A stretch of 40,943 nt of DNA from a virus, in the IMG/VR virus record IMGVR_UViG_3300009603_000026, positions 1-40,943 of that record. The stretch is one strand, 5' to 3'. Shown piece after piece: positions 24,551 to 38,972 of the stretch. Position numbers and translations under genes: made by a program. How positions within the stretch are numbered: position 1 is the first letter of the stretch; each line of letters begins with the position of its first letter. Under the pieces are notes generated by a model. That model saw only the letters and a program-made list of their open reading frames with translations. It was not told the origin of the DNA and ran no database searches.

Positions 24551-24725
24551 CGGAGGTGCTCTGCTCTTCCTGAATGCGCAGGTAGATTTCCTCACGATAG
24601 ACTCCAACGTCATCCGGTGCGTTGATACCCAGCTTCACCTGGTTGTCCTTAACGCCAATGACGGTCACGGTGATGTTGTTGCCGATATTGATGGTTTCAC
24701 CGGGTTTTCTGGTCAGTAATAACAT
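24537..24725 (-). CDS. csrA: Phage-encoded CsrA/RsmA-type RNA-binding regulator
   Basis: 62 residues from ATG 24725, with AAAGGA 8 bases upstream. '[20 protein letters not shown]', then '[20 protein letters not shown]' and '[16 protein letters not shown]' is a full-length CsrA. The beta-1 'LTRKPGE', the 'GI.AP' turn and the 'VYREEI' strand with its RNA-contacting Arg are all intact. Host CsrA binds GGA in hairpin loops and at ribosome-binding sites and alters translation. Here the gene is in the early phage operon between the P-like loader and RusA, so it is phage-borne. Its own ribosome-binding site (AAGGA) fits a CsrA target, suggesting autoregulation. Confidence 0.95.
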
Positions 24726-24901: not shown

Positions 24902-25687
24902 TCACGCGCCCCTTCCTGCTGTCACACCCGCCGTTGAGTGTTCTTGCTGGTTATCCTGTTTGAATGGGTTGATGCCAAAACGCTTCAGCACGTCTTTGGC
25001 CTCGTTCATGCTCAGCTGCTTACCCATCTGCTCGATACGACTGCGCTCTTCGGCATGGCGGGGTAAGCGCTCTGTGAAGCTCGGTAGCTTGCCATTGCGT
25101 GCCAGCTCCAGTAGACGTTGGTATTCGGTCTCGCAGAGCCTACGAAACTCCTTAATGCTCGTATGGCGTATCTGGTAGCCCACACGCTCGTTCATGAGTC
25201 GAACCAGGTCATGGGCAAACGGGTATTTATCGAAGCGCCAGCGACCTCGGGCTTCGGTGATTTCGTGAATGCAATGGTCCAGCTCTGGAATGCCAAGCTC
25301 TTCAGCTGACGGCTTGCACATATCCACAAATTCAGCCGGCGTTGGTGTAAAGCGACTGGGCGCCTTGCCGGCTTTCAGACGCTCGATACCCCGGTTAAGT
25401 CCTTTGCGGCCAATTTCGTTTTTAATTAGCTGCTCGGCGTACAGGCGCATGATGTCGTTTGAGTGCTCACCAAAACGTGAAGCGTAATCCGGACAGCAGG
25501 TGCCCAGCACCGGTACCAGTTCAGAATTTAGGATCGTCATCAGATTCATCTGCCTGGTCGTAATATCCGCTTTGGGCGAGTTGCTGTGAATGCTGCTTTG
25601 CTTCTCGCAAGAGTTTTGCTGTTGCATTTTGCGGACGCTGGTTGCCGCCAGCGCCGCTACGGGTGTTGCGTTGTTGTTTGGTTGCAT
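24902..25687 (-). CDS. Lambda P-like replicative helicase loader
   Basis: 261 residues from ATG 25687, chosen for its GGGAG at 7-base spacing. This start makes the gene overlap the initiator gene by 167 bases; ATG 25549 is an alternative. The core from about residue 50 parallels lambda P: 'ILNSELVPVLGTCCPDYA', 'YAEQLIKNEIGRKGLNRGIERLKAGKAPSRFTPTPAEFVDMCKP'. It should recruit host DnaB helicase to the origin bound by the upstream initiator. The first ~47 residues are Gln/Asn-rich and probably disordered. Length is close to that of lambda P. Confidence 0.75.
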   Translation of the reverse strand: MQPNNNATPVAALAATSVRKMQQQNSCEKQSSIHSNSPKADITTRQMNLMTILNSELVPVLGTCCPDYASRFGEHSNDIMRLYAEQLIKNEIGRKGLNRGIERLKAGKAPSRFTPTPAEFVDMCKPSAEELGIPELDHCIHEITEARGRWRFDKYPFAHDLVRLMNERVGYQIRHTSIKEFRRLCETEYQRLLELARNGKLPSFTERLPRHAEERSRIEQMGKQLSMNEAKDVLKRFGINPFKQDNQQEHSTAGVTAGRGA

Positions 25688-27001: not shown

Positions 27002-27059
27002 TTTGTAGACTCCCTGTATACATGTTGCGTGTTAATCGAGTTGCCGCTCGATGTTTTGA

Positions 27060-27089
27060 ACTATAATTCTTACTTAATGTTTAAGTCAA
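27060..27089 (-). promoter_or_regulatory. Leftward early promoter with operator-like palindrome
   Basis: Minus strand TTGACT (27089-27084), 18 bases, TATAGT (27065-27060): a near-consensus sigma-70 promoter 60 bases before the first early gene. The spacer contains CTTAA-TGT-TTAAG (27073-27085), a near-perfect palindrome well placed for repressor binding. Further TTAA-rich symmetric elements (TTAGCTAA 27118-27125, CTTAAG near 27149) lie between it and the repressor gene. Confidence 0.7.
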
Positions 27090-32708: not shown

Positions 32709-32738
32709 TTGACCTTTTCTCTAATAGTAATTTATATT
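32709..32738 (+). promoter_or_regulatory. Promoter of the rightward recombination operon
   Basis: TTGACC (32709-32714), 18 bases, TATATT (32733-32738): close to the sigma-70 consensus and in an AT-rich stretch. Transcription would start near 32745, leaving a leader of about 320 nucleotides before the first gene at 33068. Confidence 0.65.
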
Positions 32739-32747
32739 TATACACAC

Positions 32748-32766
32748 AGCGACACAGATAGACACA
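32748..32766 (+). repeat. 19-base direct repeat, copy 1 (second copy beside the integrase)
   Basis: AGCGACACAGATAGACACA; the copy at 40258-40276 differs only at the 14th base. This copy lies at the expected transcription start of the recombination operon; the other lies in the attachment region between integrase and sbcB. The pair brackets the recombination and integration genes. Confidence 0.55.
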
Positions 32767-32806
32767 ACGAGAACATGAAAACGGTGTGGTGACGCTGAAA
32801 TGAAAA

Positions 32807-33045
32807 CGCCCCGCAGGCGGCAACCTAACGGGGCGATACCCAGCAAGCTGGGTTAAGCAACATGTATTTCGGCTGGACCGGTCGGCAAACCGGAAAAGCC
32901 TAGGGAGGCAAATATCACCAACGAGACGTTGGTTTTGCCAACCAAACATAATCGACCGGCTATGGAGTATAGGCCGGCCAACAACGTTATTAACTCGGCT
33001 AACGCCGACTCAACAACCATCAACTGATTGGAATGTCCCAATCAG
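32807..33045 (+). ncRNA. Multi-hairpin structured leader of the recombination operon
   Basis: Seven successive inverted repeats in about 240 bases. CGCCCCG/CGGGGCG (32807-32835). CCCAGC-AA-GCTGGG (32839-32852). CCGGT/ACCGG (32878-32893). GGCAAA with inner CCAAC/GTTGG and TTTGCC (32907-32939). CCGGCTAT-GGAGT-ATAG-G-CCGG (32956-32977). CGGC/GCCG (32996-33007). CTGATTGG/CCAATCAG (33024-33045). The fifth presents GGAG in its loop. ATGGAGTATAG within it is repeated exactly at 33053-33063, over the ribosome-binding site of the first gene. No convincing protein is encoded. It may be a regulatory leader (antitermination or RNA-binding protein target) or a small RNA. Confidence 0.6.
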
Positions 33046-33067
33046 CCAACAAATGGAGTATAGCAAC

Positions 33068-33361
33068 ATGGCTAATACTGCTCAACAAATACCTGACGTC
33101 CGTCAGAGTACATTGAATGACCTGATTGAACAGGCCAGTAACTATCACGCTGCCCTGCTTCGTACTCGCCAGTTTAGCGGCCAAATCCTTATCGATGAAT
33201 ACGCATTCCGCATCAAGATTGAAGAAGATGATGCGGTGCTGTTAGTTCGCAGCGTTGAGTTTGACGACCCGCTTGCCATCGAGCGCATGAAGTCCATCAT
33301 CCGGACCATGCAGCAACTGATGCCGGCAACTGCCGCATTTACTGTTGGAGGTGCGGCATGA
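33068..33361 (+). CDS. First gene of the recombination operon, function unknown
   Basis: 97 residues from ATG 33068 (MANTAQQIPDVRQSTLND); GGAG lies 9 bases upstream, while an ATG at 33053 would use up that site as codons. An alpha/beta protein: 'LNDLIEQASNYHAALLRTRQFSGQILIDEYAFRIKIEEDDAVLLVRSVEFDDPLAIERMKSIIRTMQQLMPA'. No family is recognised. The stop overlaps recT as ATGA, so it is translated with the recombinase genes and is a likely accessory protein. Confidence 0.65.
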   Translation: MANTAQQIPDVRQSTLNDLIEQASNYHAALLRTRQFSGQILIDEYAFRIKIEEDDAVLLVRSVEFDDPLAIERMKSIIRTMQQLMPATAAFTVGGAA

Positions 33362-34260
33362 GCGAGCAACTAGCACAATTCCAGAATCAGGCGCCAGCAG
33401 CGCATCGCAATACCACCGACATGGTTTTGGACTATCAGGCCATGGCGCAAATGAGCAACCTGGCCGACATGATGGCCAACGGTCGTGCAACGGTTCCACA
33501 ACACCTGCAGGGCAACCCGGCTGATTGTATGGCGGTCATCATGCAGGCGGCCCAATGGCGCATGAACCCCTTTGCTGTGGCTCAGAAGACGCACGTTGTG
33601 CAAGGCACTCTGGGTTACGAAGCGCAACTGGTTAATGCCGTTGTCTGCTCGTCCACCAAAGTGAAAGACTCATTCCACTATGAGTGGTTTGGTGACTGGA
33701 CAAAGGTGATTGGCAACTTCGTCACTAAGACCTCTCAAAAAGGCAATCAGTATCAGGCACCCAACTGGACCGCTGCTGATGAAAAAGGCCTAGGCGTTCG
33801 TGTGTGGGCAACGCTAAAAGGCGAGAACGAACCGCGGGTGCTCGAACTGCTGTTGTCCCAAGCACAAGTTCGTAACTCTACCCTATGGGCTTCTGACCCC
33901 AAACAACAACTGGGCTACCTGGCTGTTAAGCGCTGGGCTCGTCTTTATGCGCCAGACGTCATACTGGGTGTTTACAGCTCGGATGAATTGCAGGAGCAAC
34001 CTGCCAGTGAGCGTGAAATCAACCCACGTGAAGAATCAGCCAGCGGTCGTCCGGAGCGTGAGCTGTATCCGGATGCTGACTTCGAACAGAACTTCCCGAA
34101 ATGGAAGAAAGCCATCGAGTCAGGCAAACGCACGGCTCAGCAAATCATCGACATGGTGAGCTCTAAAGCTGACCTGACCGCTGAGCAGCAGGAGCAAATC
34201 AAAGCAGTTGAAAGCCAACCGGCTGCGGACGAACAAGCACCAGCGCAGGGAGACGAATAA
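33358..34260 (+). CDS. recT: RecT-family single-strand annealing protein
   Basis: 300 residues. 'GRATVPQHLQGNPADCMAVIMQAAQWRMNPFAVAQKTHVVQGTLGYEAQLVNAVV' and 'WASDPKQQLGYLAVKRWARLYAPDVILGVYSSDEL' are hallmark RecT segments (PF03837). The C-terminal ~80 residues are charged and probably flexible. It anneals complementary single strands made by the adjacent exonuclease, like lambda Red beta. It starts inside the preceding stop and is followed after 2 bases by the exonuclease gene. Confidence 0.92.
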   Translation: MSEQLAQFQNQAPAAHRNTTDMVLDYQAMAQMSNLADMMANGRATVPQHLQGNPADCMAVIMQAAQWRMNPFAVAQKTHVVQGTLGYEAQLVNAVVCSSTKVKDSFHYEWFGDWTKVIGNFVTKTSQKGNQYQAPNWTAADEKGLGVRVWATLKGENEPRVLELLLSQAQVRNSTLWASDPKQQLGYLAVKRWARLYAPDVILGVYSSDELQEQPASEREINPREESASGRPERELYPDADFEQNFPKWKKAIESGKRTAQQIIDMVSSKADLTAEQQEQIKAVESQPAADEQAPAQGDE

Positions 34261-34262
34261 TC

Positions 34263-35975
34263 ATGAAAATCTTAAATTTAGTTCAGGGCTCACCCGAGTG
34301 GCATGCGGCCCGTGCAACTCGAATGACGGCATCAGAAGCGCCAGCAATGATGTCAGCGACTAAAAAAATGTCACGCACCGAGTTGTTGAAAGCAAAGTCG
34401 CTCGGTACCGAGAAAGAAGTCAGCGAATACGTGCAGAAGTTCCTGTTCGACAAAGGCCACGAAATGGAAGCGGCCGCTCGCCCGTTGGTTGAAGAAATCA
34501 TTGGTGAAGAGCTGTTCCCCACTACCGGCGAAACTGAAGACGGTGTGTATCTGGCGTCGTTCGATGGCATGACCATGCTGGGTGACATCTTGTTCGAGCA
34601 CAAGATGTGGAACGAAGCACTGGCCGAGGCGGTACGCAAAGGGAAGTTGCCGGCTGAATATTACTGGCAACTCGAGCACCAACTGATGGTGGCTGATGAG
34701 GCCGAGAAAGTCATCTTTGTGGTATCTGATGGTACCAAAGAGAATTTTGAATACATGTGGTACACGCCGGTTCGTGGCCGCCGCAACAAGCTCATTAAAG
34801 GCTGGGACCAGTTCAAGGCTGACCTGGCAGAGTTTGAGCCGGCGCCAGCCAAAGAAGAGGTGGTTGCCGAAAAGCCAAATGAATTGCCCACATTAATGAT
34901 CAGCGTTGATGGCGAAGTTAAGAGCAGCAACCTGGCTACATACAAGGACACCGCTCTGGCGTTTGTTAAAAGCATCAGCACGGACCTGCAAACAGACCAA
35001 GACTTTGCCAATGCCGAAGAACTGGTTAAGTTCTGTAAAAAAGCTGAGGGCGAGCTGGATAACGCTAAGAAACAAGCCCTGGCACAGACGCAAAGCATCG
35101 ATACGTTATTCAATACCATCGATGAGCTAAAAGAGCAGCTGCGCGGTAAACGTCTGCAACTGGATAAACTGGTTAAGTCACGCAAAGACGAAATCCGCGG
35201 TGACATCAAAAAGGTAGCCTTGGAAAAACTGCAGAACCACCTTGATGGATTGAATGAAGACCTGGGCGATTTTCAGGTACCAATGCCGGACGTTGATTTT
35301 GCATCGGTGATGAAAGGCAAGAAGACCGTGGACGGATTACAGGGTGCGGTTGATGATCACCTTGCAAAGGTCAAAATCGAACTTAACGACTTGCATGTTC
35401 AGGTGATGATGAACTGGCAGGCCTACCTTAAAGAGGTCGATAGCGACCTTAAATTCCTATTCCCGGACATCAAAGAACTGGCACTTAAGGACAATGACAG
35501 CTTTGCCGCAATCGTTAAGCAACGCCTGACTGAGCATGAGTTAGCCGAGCAGAAGCGCAAGCAGGCAGAGACTAAGCCTGAACCGGAGCCAGAGGCAAAG
35601 CCAGAGCCGGAAGCTGATAACCCTGCTGAAAGCACAGCTGCTCCAGCCCCTGTAAGCAATCCTATCGCAGATGACTACACGCCAACGGATAACGAGATTA
35701 TTCAGGCGGTGGCTTATCAATTCAACGTGTCCCAGGGCAAAGCAACGCTGTGGATTGCCGGCATGAAAATGCACCAGGAGAGCACTGGAGAGATTTCAAA
35801 CCTGGCTAACTTCCTTATCGACAAGATTGCCGATTCAACCACCCAGCGTGACCTTGAAGCGACCGGCAAAGAAGTCAGCAATGCAAAAGCGCGGGGTTAC
35901 TTGAGCGAGGCGGATTACCAGGCGTTACAAACGTCTTACCGCGCGCAAAAGTCCAGCACTCGCAACGTAGCGTGA
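34263..35975 (+). CDS. YqaJ-type exonuclease fused to DUF1351-like and C-terminal domains
   Basis: 570 residues in three parts. Residues 1-200 are a YqaJ/lambda-exo nuclease: 'GSPEWHAARATRMTASEAPAMM', 'LASFDGMTMLGDILFEHKMW' with D101, E112 and K114 of the PD-(D/E)XK site, and 'YYWQLEHQLMVA'. Residues about 220-430 are a helical DUF1351-like region ('EELVKFCKKAEGELDNAKKQALAQTQSIDTLFNTIDELKEQLRGKRL'). A Glu/Pro repeat linker (about 438-470) leads to a C-terminal helical domain. The enzyme degrades 5' strands to feed RecT. Fusion of all three parts in one chain is less common than separate genes. Confidence 0.88.
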   Translation: MKILNLVQGSPEWHAARATRMTASEAPAMMSATKKMSRTELLKAKSLGTEKEVSEYVQKFLFDKGHEMEAAARPLVEEIIGEELFPTTGETEDGVYLASFDGMTMLGDILFEHKMWNEALAEAVRKGKLPAEYYWQLEHQLMVADEAEKVIFVVSDGTKENFEYMWYTPVRGRRNKLIKGWDQFKADLAEFEPAPAKEEVVAEKPNELPTLMISVDGEVKSSNLATYKDTALAFVKSISTDLQTDQDFANAEELVKFCKKAEGELDNAKKQALAQTQSIDTLFNTIDELKEQLRGKRLQLDKLVKSRKDEIRGDIKKVALEKLQNHLDGLNEDLGDFQVPMPDVDFASVMKGKKTVDGLQGAVDDHLAKVKIELNDLHVQVMMNWQAYLKEVDSDLKFLFPDIKELALKDNDSFAAIVKQRLTEHELAEQKRKQAETKPEPEPEAKPEPEADNPAESTAAPAPVSNPIADDYTPTDNEIIQAVAYQFNVSQGKATLWIAGMKMHQESTGEISNLANFLIDKIADSTTQRDLEATGKEVSNAKARGYLSEADYQALQTSYRAQKSSTRNVA

Positions 35976-35985
35976 GGTGATGGCT

Positions 35986-36306
35986 ATGAATGCAAAAGAG
36001 AACGTAATTCAGCGACTGGCTTTTATGGCCAGTCACTATGAGCAAGTCGGTGGCTCTGAGCAGGCAGGCACGTTACGCGCAGCCATCCGGTTTATTTCTG
36101 ACAGTGAAGAGAGCACTGACAGCGCAGAGGTAAAGGAACTTAGGCAGAAGTGTAACGTGCTGAAGGCATCACTTCGCCTGCTTAGTAAAGACCTGGTTGC
36201 TCTCACTGAAGAATCCACTGGCGTTGCCGGCTGGCACCAGAACGGTGACATCGCGGAGTGGGATGAATTCGAGGGCATGATGAAAATTGCGCGGGGTGCG
36301 TTATGA
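35986..36306 (+). CDS. Small phage protein, function unknown
   Basis: 106 residues from ATG 35986, eight bases after GAGG; GTG 35977 and ATG 35980 are less well placed. Helical N-terminus ('NVIQRLAFMASHYEQVGGSEQAGTLRAAIRFI'), then a short coiled coil and 'GWHQNGDIAEWDEFEGMMKIARGAL'. No known domain. It overlaps the next gene as ATGA and begins a string of small coupled genes. Confidence 0.6.
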   Translation: MNAKENVIQRLAFMASHYEQVGGSEQAGTLRAAIRFISDSEESTDSAEVKELRQKCNVLKASLRLLSKDLVALTEESTGVAGWHQNGDIAEWDEFEGMMKIARGAL

Positions 36307-36515
36307 ATACGGCAAAACTTCGAGAGGGATGCGAAGCACTTCAAAAAGCTTTCGACTCATCGCAATCATTTAGTATTGCGCGCATCCAGAGAGTCACGAG
36401 GCTTGGTTATGTGGAAGCCAATGAATTGGCCCGTTTCGGTCTGGACAACGGCTACTTAAGAAACTGCCAGAGCTTACCGCAGAGGTTTTTTATTATTCCC
36501 GGAGGCCCCGCATGA
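36303..36515 (+). CDS. Small winged-helix protein (FtsK-gamma-like)
   Basis: 70 residues. 'FSIARIQRVTRLGYVEANELARFGLDNGYL' resembles the gamma winged-helix domain of FtsK (helix, 'IQR..RIGYnrA..l...Le..G.v'). It is probably a small DNA-binding protein. Both ends overlap neighbours by ATGA, so it is translated as part of the chain. The match is by pattern only. Confidence 0.55.
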   Translation: MNTAKLREGCEALQKAFDSSQSFSIARIQRVTRLGYVEANELARFGLDNGYLRNCQSLPQRFFIIPGGPA

Positions 36516-36868
36516 AAAACAAACTTCCGGGCGAAGGTACTCTAGTCCTCAATTACAAAGAATGGCAAACGGCAGTAATGGATGACTTTGAAGCGCAGCA
36601 CAACAAGCAAGAGTGTCCTGACTGTGGCGGTACCGCCACGGGTATTTGTTACCACTGTAACCAGTACATGGAATGTGAAGAATGCGATGGCAAAGGGAAC
36701 GTTTGGACTGATCGTGCCGGCGACCCTGTGGCTCTCCCGTCAACTGGATTGCTTGCCTATAAAAAGTACGTAATCAAGACGTTCTTAAAGCTTTCCAAAT
36801 TCACAGGCCGCAGCTACTGGAAAAGCTGCAAAGATTTTTTAAACCGAATTGAACGAGGTGCGTTATGA
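36512..36868 (+). CDS. Zinc-binding protein with DnaJ-like Cys repeats
   Basis: 118 residues. At about 36-68 it has 'CPDCGGTATGICYHC' and 'MECEECDGKG', three CxxC pairs with CxxCxG spacing as in the zinc region of DnaJ. The C-terminal half is basic and helical ('YVIKTFLKLSKFTGRSYWKSCKDFLNRIERG'). Possibly a chaperone-like or nucleic-acid-binding accessory protein. Coupled to both neighbours by ATGA. Confidence 0.6.
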   Translation: MKNKLPGEGTLVLNYKEWQTAVMDDFEAQHNKQECPDCGGTATGICYHCNQYMECEECDGKGNVWTDRAGDPVALPSTGLLAYKKYVIKTFLKLSKFTGRSYWKSCKDFLNRIERGAL

Positions 36869-37611
36869 AACTCGATTTTTTAAAAACCTTACAGGAAGTT
36901 CAACCTTGTGGCTTGCGCCCTGTTATGGACATTTTGGATGAGAGCTATCCGGTCATGGCGTTTTCTGATTGGAAAGAGCTGGCTATTCAGCTTATCGATG
37001 CCGGCTTTGTTAAGCGCCACAATAACGGTCAGTACCAGATTACCCCAGCGGGTAAGGAAGCTATCAAAAAAGGTGAGTATTTTATTGATGAAGCTAGCGA
37101 ACAAAATGATGAGGAACAACCTGACCCGCAAGACACAGCGAGTTCACGACCGGCACTCGACCATCCGTGGCGGGCACCACTGTCACCTGAAAAGCATGCT
37201 AAAAAAGCGACCAGTGAGTCTGAGCGCGAAGCCGAGGTTAGCGAAGCAAATGATGACACATGGATGCTGAAAGAAAGTGAAAAGGTTTTAGACCCTTTCG
37301 CCGGGACTGAATCTCGAACAGATAGCCAACAGAAGCAATCCAGCGATTGTGATCCAGCCCCGGAAGTAAAAATGGATATTAGCGGTAATTTGCTTCACGA
37401 CTTCTCCTGGGGATTGCGCGCAATGAAACAACAAGCTGAACCCAGCGATGGCCGTATTATCAGCTTACCCGTCAAAGATTCGGACCAGGAGCTTGCAAAA
37501 ATGTCAGTCGACCAGTTACTGATTGTTTTTAACCTTGGAAAGCAGGCCCGTGATTTGATTGAGAACCGACTGCGTGAACACAGTTTTTTATGTGATGAGG
37601 AGCCGGTATGA
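36865..37611 (+). CDS. Winged-helix protein with disordered middle, function unknown
   Basis: 248 residues. Residues 1-70 look like a winged helix ('SDWKELAIQLIDAGFVKRHNNGQYQITPAGKEAIKKG'). Residues about 75-175 are polar, Glu/Ser/Asp-rich and probably disordered. The C-terminus forms helices ('SVDQLLIVFNLGKQARDLIENRLREH'). A phage regulator or partner-binding protein is likely; no family recognised. Both ends are start/stop-coupled. Confidence 0.55.
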   Translation: MKLDFLKTLQEVQPCGLRPVMDILDESYPVMAFSDWKELAIQLIDAGFVKRHNNGQYQITPAGKEAIKKGEYFIDEASEQNDEEQPDPQDTASSRPALDHPWRAPLSPEKHAKKATSESEREAEVSEANDDTWMLKESEKVLDPFAGTESRTDSQQKQSSDCDPAPEVKMDISGNLLHDFSWGLRAMKQQAEPSDGRIISLPVKDSDQELAKMSVDQLLIVFNLGKQARDLIENRLREHSFLCDEEPV

Positions 37612-37901
37612 AATACCTTTACGCCGGCTCCCAGTCCAACGAGCGATTTGAGTTACTGCTGAGCCTGACACGCATCAATAGCGAGGATGTGGTTGCCGCC
37701 CTTTACGACCACCTGGTCAAGGGCGCAACTGAGAGCAGCGCGGCCATTATGAATGGTATATCGATGTCGAACTTCAACCGGGCATTTAGGAAAGTAAACA
37801 GTGTGGCCGCTTCGGTAGAGCGAATCAAAGAAATCGACCTTCGCAAACTGAATCAGTTAAGCGATAACAAGCAGAACAACACATTGGTGAATCATGAGTG
37901 A
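37608..37901 (+). CDS. PapB/KorA-like helix-turn-helix regulator
   Basis: 97 residues. 'VVAALYDHLVKGATESSAAIMNGISMSNFNRAFRKVNSVAASVERI' has the layout of PapB/FocB (PF03333) and TrfB/KorA-type regulators: helix, 'LV.G.t...A......s...f.raf.r.n.....ve.i'. It probably binds DNA within the phage. The start overlaps the previous stop as ATGA; the stop overlaps the next start by eight bases. Confidence 0.55.
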   Translation: MKYLYAGSQSNERFELLLSLTRINSEDVVAALYDHLVKGATESSAAIMNGISMSNFNRAFRKVNSVAASVERIKEIDLRKLNQLSDNKQNNTLVNHE

Positions 37902-38097
37902 CGTAGTAGATAACGCAAACGCCACGGCTGAGTACCTGGCAGAGCTAGCAGTTGCAGATGCTCGGTCTAGTCGTGACTGGCCAGAAGCATCGGGGCATTG
38001 CCTGAACTGTGGCGAAACGCTTAATAACAAACGCCGCTGGTGCGACAAAAATTGCGCCAGCGATTGGGAGAAACTACGCGTGCGAGGTGTCGCATAA
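37894..38097 (+). CDS. Small zinc-finger protein
   Basis: 67 residues. A helical N-terminus is followed by 'CLNCGETLNNKRRWCDKNCASDWEK', a treble-clef-like CxxC-x(11)-CxxxC arrangement seen in small phage proteins similar to DUF2116 zinc ribbons. Role unknown. TAATG coupling joins it to another tiny zinc-binding gene. Confidence 0.6.
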   Translation: MSDVVDNANATAEYLAELAVADARSSRDWPEASGHCLNCGETLNNKRRWCDKNCASDWEKLRVRGVA

Positions 38098-38258
38098 TGG
38101 GAGAGATAGCAGACGGAGTAATTAACGGTCTATTCTGCACACATTGCTGCGGCATTATCGATGGCGAAGAGCCAGGATACGAGCATAAATGCGAAGATTG
38201 TAAGCCACGCAAAAAACGTAAAAACAAAGGAAAACGTCATGGCCAGTCGCGGAGTTAA
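38097..38258 (+). CDS. Tiny zinc-binding protein
   Basis: 53 residues beginning [21 protein letters not shown] 'CTHCCG...HKCEDC' set of cysteines can bind one zinc ion. The C-terminus is very basic ('[18 protein letters not shown]'), suggesting nucleic-acid contact. TAATG overlaps the previous stop, and its end overlaps the ssb start by 20 bases, so it is part of the coupled chain. Confidence 0.55.
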
Positions 38259-38769
38259 CAAAGTCATTTTAATCGGTAACCTTGGTGCCGACCCGGAAGT
38301 TCGTTATACGCAAAACAGCACCGCCATCGCAAACCTTTCGATTGCGACTAGTGAGAGCTGGAAAGATAAAGCCACTGGTGAGCCGAGAGAGCAAACCGAA
38401 TGGCATCGCTGTGTAGCTTATCGTCGCCTTGGCGAAATTGCCGGCGAGTATTTGAAGAAAGGCTCTAAGGTGTATATCGAAGGCCGGCTCCAAACACGCA
38501 AGTGGCAAGGGCAAGACGGTCAGGACCGTTACACCACGGAAATTGTGGTGAACGAGTTGCAGATGCTGGATAGCCGTGGCACAGAGCAAAGTGGGAACAA
38601 ACCGGGAACAAACTGGGAACAGCGTCCGAGCTCAAGTCCTGCGCCGCAGCCGCAACCCCAACAGAGCGGTCTCGGCACAACAATGCCTGGCGCCGGTTCT
38701 CAGGGTAAAAGCTGGCAGGGTCCTGCGCCAGCAGCACAAGATTTTGACGATGATATTCGAGTGAGGTAA
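38239..38769 (+). CDS. ssb: Single-stranded DNA-binding protein with atypical tail
   Basis: 176 residues from ATG 38239, with AAAGGA upstream. The OB fold is complete: '[35 protein letters not shown]', '[37 protein letters not shown]', '[13 protein letters not shown]'. A Gln/Pro/Gly-rich linker follows. Bacterial SSB usually ends in DDDIPF, the docking tip for repair proteins; here the chain ends DFDDDIRVR, with the Pro-Phe tip replaced. It works with RecT and the exonuclease and in replication. Confidence 0.93.
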
Positions 38770-38771
38770 CT

Positions 38772-38972
38772 ATGATGCAACAGACAGTACAAGACAATCG
38801 ACACATTGAGGTGATGACCGTTAAGGAAATATGCGACCTGCTTCGCATTTCTCGTAGCACATTTTGTCGTGTAACGCAGAACCACGAGAAATTCCCGAAG
38901 CCTATTCCTGGCACAGGAAGTAAATTTCTGTACCCGGCTAAGGAGGTCAGAAAATTTGCTGGTCTTCAGTAA
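38772..38972 (+). CDS. AlpA-family regulator/excisionase-like protein
   Basis: 66 residues. 'VMTVKEICDLLRISRSTFCRVTQNHEKFPKPIPGTGSKFLYPAKEVRKF' is the AlpA/MerR-like helix-turn-helix pattern (PF05930). AlpA-type proteins activate integrase genes or act as recombination directionality factors for P4-type integrases. The gene converges on the integrase gene and overlaps its 3' end by 26 bases, so an Xis role is likely. Confidence 0.85.
   Translation: MMQQTVQDNRHIEVMTVKEICDLLRISRSTFCRVTQNHEKFPKPIPGTGSKFLYPAKEVRKFAGLQ

Follow-up and report, generated by a model that had tools for sequence, protein, structure and literature searches.

What does a gene-free leader, folded into a row of hairpins, do between an early promoter of a temperate phage and the operon that follows? 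Detailed knowledge of early-gene control through nascent RNA comes from few enterobacterial phages (lambda, HK022 and mEp021). The window, i.e., the whole stretch of DNA that was analyzed, is a record of 40,943 bases from a marine temperate phage, the closest relatives of which are Idiomarina prophages and metagenome contigs. A family of Idiomarina-phage leaders at the position of nut and put sites, with neither the put structure nor boxA and N, would imply a further route by which a phage commandeers RNA polymerase or translation. The initial annotation had suggested an RNA switch on RecT and exonuclease expression, possibly working through phage CsrA and GGA-loop hairpins, and had named a put-like antiterminator or an abundant small RNA as alternatives. 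For comparison, we used the relatives in two groups: group A includes the window, L001, L002 and L184 (a prophage of Idiomarina sp. ATCH4), and group B includes L167, L166, L084, L085 and L165.

Promoters, operons and the fold of the leader

The leader follows a P_L-like early promoter (32709..32738, + strand; predicted start near 32746) that is sigma70-like, TTGACC-18-TATATT, with 10 of 12 consensus positions, so that the good promoter described initially is confirmed; the relatives have TTGAC promoters at the matching position, with different spacers. A P_R-like promoter, TTGACT-18-TATAGT, is located at 27060..27089 on the - strand. The two promoters have operator-like sequences in common (15 of 16 bp identical in the window, and 22 bp identical in one relative), which fits what would be two repressor-controlled early promoters. 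In lambda and HK022, the leader position after P_L is that of nutL and putL, respectively, and, given the operator-like sequences common to P_L and P_R, this is the position that the leader occupies.

About 320 gene-free bases separate the P_L-like promoter from the ribosome-binding site (RBS) of gene 1 (33068..33361, + strand), which heads the left operon and encodes a protein of 97 aa with relatives in groups A and B. Neither a Pfam nor a PHROG match was found for this protein, its fold model is poor (pLDDT 62), comparison of the model with the PDB gave no convincing match, and a search of known phages returned no match to the leader or to gene 1. The remainder of the left early operon (33358..38972, + strand) encodes RecT, a RecE-like exonuclease, small genes, a PapB-like protein, a DksA-like zinc finger, SSB and an HTH protein. 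The right operon, on the - strand with a start near 27053, includes a CII-like gene, an O-like gene, a P-like helicase loader, csrA, rusA and a Mor-like activator.

The non-coding stretch with seven inverted repeats noted at the outset is reproduced by the minimum free energy (MFE) fold, which contains seven hairpins and, in addition, a 5' stem. Folding supports structure in the leader as a whole: its energy is -109.6 kcal/mol, compared to -84 +/- 4.9 kcal/mol for dinucleotide shuffles (z = -5.3, with 0 of 100 shuffles as good), and the z values of the six phages are -5.3 (window), -7.1, -4.0, -3.4, -6.3 and -2.3. The 5'-terminal stem-loop (32747..32797, + strand) is found in the MFE folds of the window, L002 and L184, with different pairs in each; it is not formed in the fold of L001, and the alignment is poor across this segment.

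The individual hairpins, all on the + strand, differ considerably in their distribution. Hairpin 1 (32807..32835; 7 bp plus 3 bp, with the hexaloop CGGCAA at 32818-32823) is kept by every relative in both groups. Read on the opposite strand, this hairpin has TTTTCATTTC after it and looks like an intrinsic terminator of antisense transcripts; in L165 the T-run is missing. Hairpin 2 (32838..32853; ACCCAG-CAAG-CTGGGT) was identified in the MFE fold, and hairpin 3 (32871..32900) consists of an outer GGCT/AGCC stem and an inner CCGGT-CGGCAA-ACCGG stem-loop, with the loop at 32883-32888. Hairpin 4 (32903..32943) has the top CCAACG-AGA-CGTTGG, and its 5' strand resembles the start of the CII-like gene. 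Further downstream, hairpin 5 (32956..32977; CCGGCTAT-GGAGT-ATAG-G-CCGG), with its GGAG loop, is present only in the window, being absent from L001, L002 and L184; hairpin 6 (32995..33008; TCGGC-TAAC-GCCGA) is present in all four group A phages; and hairpin 7 (33024..33045; CTGATTGG-AATGTC-CCAATCAG) is present in the window and L184 and absent from L001 and L002. Thus, L001 and L002 have one hairpin each downstream of the four that make up the core, and the window and L184 have three each, including a diverged duplicate in L184. Hairpins 5-7, which vary between phages, are probably dispensable spacers. In L184 (8700-8800), hairpin 7 occurs in tandem, in copies that have diverged; judging by these copies, a leader gains or loses whole hairpins at a time.

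The description of these hairpins as having GGA loops was not upheld, as only one of the seven (hairpin 5) has such a loop and it is missing from the three nearest relatives. The sequence ATGGAGTATAG, reported to be repeated over the RBS of gene 1, does occur twice, at 32962 and at 33053 (33053..33063, + strand, over the GGAG of the RBS, where GGAGTATAGCAACATG is conserved in group A); however, the repeat is merely GGAG plus its flank.

Strong structure, absence of coding and a promoter of its own would also be expected if the leader gave rise, by processing or by termination, to an abundant small RNA that targets messages of the host or the phage in trans. However, there is no U-tract terminator on the + strand between the promoter and gene 1, and the leader runs on into the gene-1 RBS, so that we consider this explanation very unlikely.

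Conservation and covariation of the core

The conserved part of the leader consists of hairpins 1-4 (32797..32949, + strand). Over this core of about 150 nt, the four group A phages are 90-93% identical to the window, with gene-1 third codon positions at 63-78%, and the unpaired bases are nearly invariant. The core alignment contains indels of 1 and 2 nt, which break any reading frame; therefore, the core is non-coding on either strand, and a hidden gene can be ruled out. A 13-aa ORF at 32862, MYFGWTGRQTGKA, was also rejected because it is broken in L002 and its changes track pairing rather than coding.

A covariance model (R3) that was built from the four group A cores only detects the equivalently placed leaders of group B, the more distant Idiomarina prophages, with E values from 6e-9 to 0.004. 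In hairpin 1, comparison of the two groups reveals four pairs in which both partners have changed, and the covariation score of this hairpin is 0.46, compared to 0.19 in shuffled alignments (0 of 500 as high) and to at most 0.06 for slid partners. In hairpin 3, two adjacent pairs are changed on both sides within group A. The other stems hardly vary, and the covariation support accordingly comes from hairpins 1 and 3. Such compensatory changes argue well for the predicted structure; this support is good but not final, since the sequences are few and related.

R3 was also run against approximately 790 additional genomes from the family and order concerned. The remaining matches, in L216-L221, were weak, and those inspected (L216-L218) were discarded because they resemble generic terminator hairpins. 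An Rfam search with the leader returned nothing at the gathering score and one chance match (E 0.28) on the other strand. The leader core is thus a real, conserved RNA family without a listing in databases, and the best reading of the leader is that of a new family of phage early-leader RNA. Of the proposed RNA switch on RecT and the exonuclease, the RNA element itself stands, given the strong fold, conservation at the nucleotide level, compensatory changes and the same placement in relatives; the CsrA/GGA-loop mechanism finds no support in the loops, because the hairpin with the GGA loop is an insertion that the window phage alone has and GGA is not enriched.

A hairpin loop common to both early transcripts

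The hexaloop CGGCAA tops hairpin 1 as well as hairpin 3, and it recurs outside the left operon. In the right operon, a hairpin with this loop (27035..27052, - strand; ATCGAG-CGGCAA-CTCGAT, then GCAACATGTATACAGGGAG) is positioned at the predicted 5' end of the P_R transcript and is kept in L161, L162 and L163. Within the same operon, another hairpin with a CGGCAA loop is found at the junction of the O-like and P-like genes (25636..25653, - strand), inside overlapping coding sequence; the overlap of the two genes amounts to about 167 bases and holds the 14-mer CTGGCGGCAACCAG (25634-25687, - strand), which is invariant in eight phages. Among 26 hexaloop hairpins on the sense strand of the early regions, CGGCAA is the sole loop used more than once, and it is found in 0 of 130 late-region hexaloop hairpins (Fisher P 0.004). 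A further CGGCAA, at the end of cro in group B, was set aside as a likely product of the protein motif TGGKL.

The relative L184 provides a natural variant of this loop. Both its P_R hairpin and its hairpin 3 have a CAGCAA loop, and loop and stem of hairpin 3 read CGAGCAGCAACTCG, the same as in the P_R hairpin of this phage. Hairpin 1 and the O/P hairpin of L184 retain CGGCAA, so that the loops do not all change together, and the idea that co-evolving loops prove a single partner is weakened. The combination of a conserved hairpin and a natural loop variant makes the early-leader RNA directly testable.

The similarity of the two early leaders is not confined to the loop. Searches with the P_R leader, its own locus left aside, rank the P_L leader first in each of the four group A phages (shuffle P 0.0005-0.007), and in group B this is the case for L165 only; it should be noted that the match is weak in the window, with a score of 26 vs 24 for the next best. 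The AGGGAGG block (32902..32908, + strand), invariant in four phages, falls within the P_L/P_R alignment; it is no RBS in the P_L leader, but the P_R sequence that it matches is the RBS block of the CII-like gene. The sequence GCAACATGT has three matches compared to 0.53 expected, and all three fall in early leaders: in the P_L leader (32857..32865, + strand), in the P_R leader (27028-27020, - strand) and at the csrA start (24730-24722, - strand).

These observations bear on two further explanations, both of which, like the small RNA, rank as less likely than antitermination and translational control. Stems at the 5' end and a row of hairpins might shield the early mRNA from degradation or keep the RBS open, with no specific partner; both early transcripts do have a stem within a few bases of their start, and the number of hairpins is freely variable in the 3' part of the leader. 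This explanation, which we regard as unlikely, leaves unaccounted for the sequence-specific CRGCAA loop common to P_L and P_R and the nearly invariant unpaired bases of the core. The hairpins might instead function in DNA, as binding sites or as an origin, given that inverted repeats are symmetric in DNA and that the O/P junction has a CGGCAA hairpin. However, the CGGCAA loop is asymmetric and is always on the transcribed strand, in two oppositely directed operons, and a role in DNA is accordingly highly improbable.

Antitermination or translational control as possible roles

A folded, conserved leader and a special hairpin that is common to the other early transcript point to an early-control RNA, probably of the antiterminator type. 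The window phage begins both of its early operons with related structured RNA, beside operator-like sequences common to the two promoters, which is how nut and put sites are arranged; we therefore tentatively interpret the leader, a cis-acting RNA of the left operon, as an antitermination-type element, the most likely of the roles considered. Under this interpretation, the CRGCAA hairpin would be recognized as soon as it emerges in the transcript, either by a factor of phage or host origin or by the polymerase itself; recognition would modify the elongation complex, and the modified complex would then transcribe through the long recombination and replication operons. The leader would be an antitermination site that acts like nut or put and is a member of neither. 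A more specific and doubtful version is a new antitermination system of marine gammaproteobacterial phages, in which CRGCAA hairpins at P_L, at P_R and inside the right operon would be loaded with a phage or host factor, other than N and put, and would carry RNA polymerase through the early operons.

RNA of the put type acts through the beta' zinc-binding domain to suppress termination and needs no phage protein to do so. Each put site of HK022 comprises two stem-loops and has no need for a dedicated protein (PMC9378689). As with putL and putR of HK022, the window has structured RNA just downstream of P_L and a related element in the P_R transcript. The differences are that the window leader has more hairpins and that CGGCAA forms the loop of a hairpin, whereas the CGGCAAT of put sites makes up part of a single side of an internal loop. 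A put covariance model (R2) made from twelve put sites was searched across 13 sources; it recovers putL (95 bits) and putR (63 bits) of HK022 and has no match above chance in the window or the relatives. The leader is therefore not a put RNA: the suggestion of a put-like antiterminator was right as to position, just downstream of a P_L-like promoter with a related element at P_R, and wrong as to family.

The comparison with lambda-type nut sites is similarly mixed. In both cases, a hairpin with a specific loop (CRGCAA in the two leaders here, in the manner of boxB) is found in both early operons, adjoining repressor-controlled promoters, and there are several sites per phage. In mEp021, a single N-like protein acts on three nut sites (PMC11893012), which is a precedent for several sites in one phage. 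Unlike the adenine-rich boxB loops of lambda-type nut, however, the loop of the window phage is CRGCAA; no boxA (CGCTCTTA-like) is found in group A, where the best matches are 5-6 of 8 positions (7 of 8 in L165 only), and no conserved N-like arginine-rich protein was detected among the small early ORFs scanned. The only strongly basic candidate, a short ORF (38097-38258, + strand) whose product has CxxC motifs and a strongly basic tail, was rejected as an N-like partner because the relatives have no conserved copy. The lack of a strong sense-strand intrinsic terminator to be overcome in either early operon, in a scan that reveals intrinsic and not Rho-dependent terminators, counts against antitermination, as do the small number of independent phages and the placement of the O/P site in doubly coding sequence.

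The main rival is translational control, in which an RNA-binding protein, possibly the phage CsrA, would bind the P_L leader, the starts of the CII-like gene and csrA, and the gene-1 RBS, with the P_L leader perhaps serving as a decoy for the start regions. The phage csrA (24537-24764, - strand; Pfam CsrA E 1.7e-25; start probably the ATG at 24725) has a conserved counterpart in every relative of both groups, and its product is a candidate trans-acting RNA-binding protein. The presence of this CsrA and of a GGA at the RBS is the reason why control via the RBS stays a rival. Translational control is also consistent with AGGGAG and GGAG at gene starts, with the extension of the P_L/P_R similarity over the RBS and the first codons of the CII-like gene, and with the distribution of GCAACATG, all four window copies of which lie in the P_L leader, at the gene-1 start, in the P_R leader and at the csrA start. 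The leader indeed resembles CsrA/RsmA-regulated leaders and CsrB-type sponge RNAs in its row of hairpins, the GGA at the RBS and the csrA gene in the same phage. It differs from them in that its GGA loop is not conserved and GGA is not enriched: there are 6 GGA compared to 6.6 in shuffles, and 3 ANGGA compared to 2.1, and neither motif is enriched in any of the six leaders, on which ground a CsrA sponge was rejected. Moreover, the base preceding GGA at the gene-1 RBS differs between phages, the GGAG-loop hairpin is private to the window, and the conserved loop CGGCAA is no CsrA motif. Taken together, we consider translational control rather unlikely.

The work on the leader also raises the question of what purpose the phage-encoded CsrA serves. 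The 5' region of csrA contains a conserved hairpin of its own, which is GGCGGC...GCCGCC in group A; group B has another hairpin there, and the 3' arm contains GAAATG in either group.
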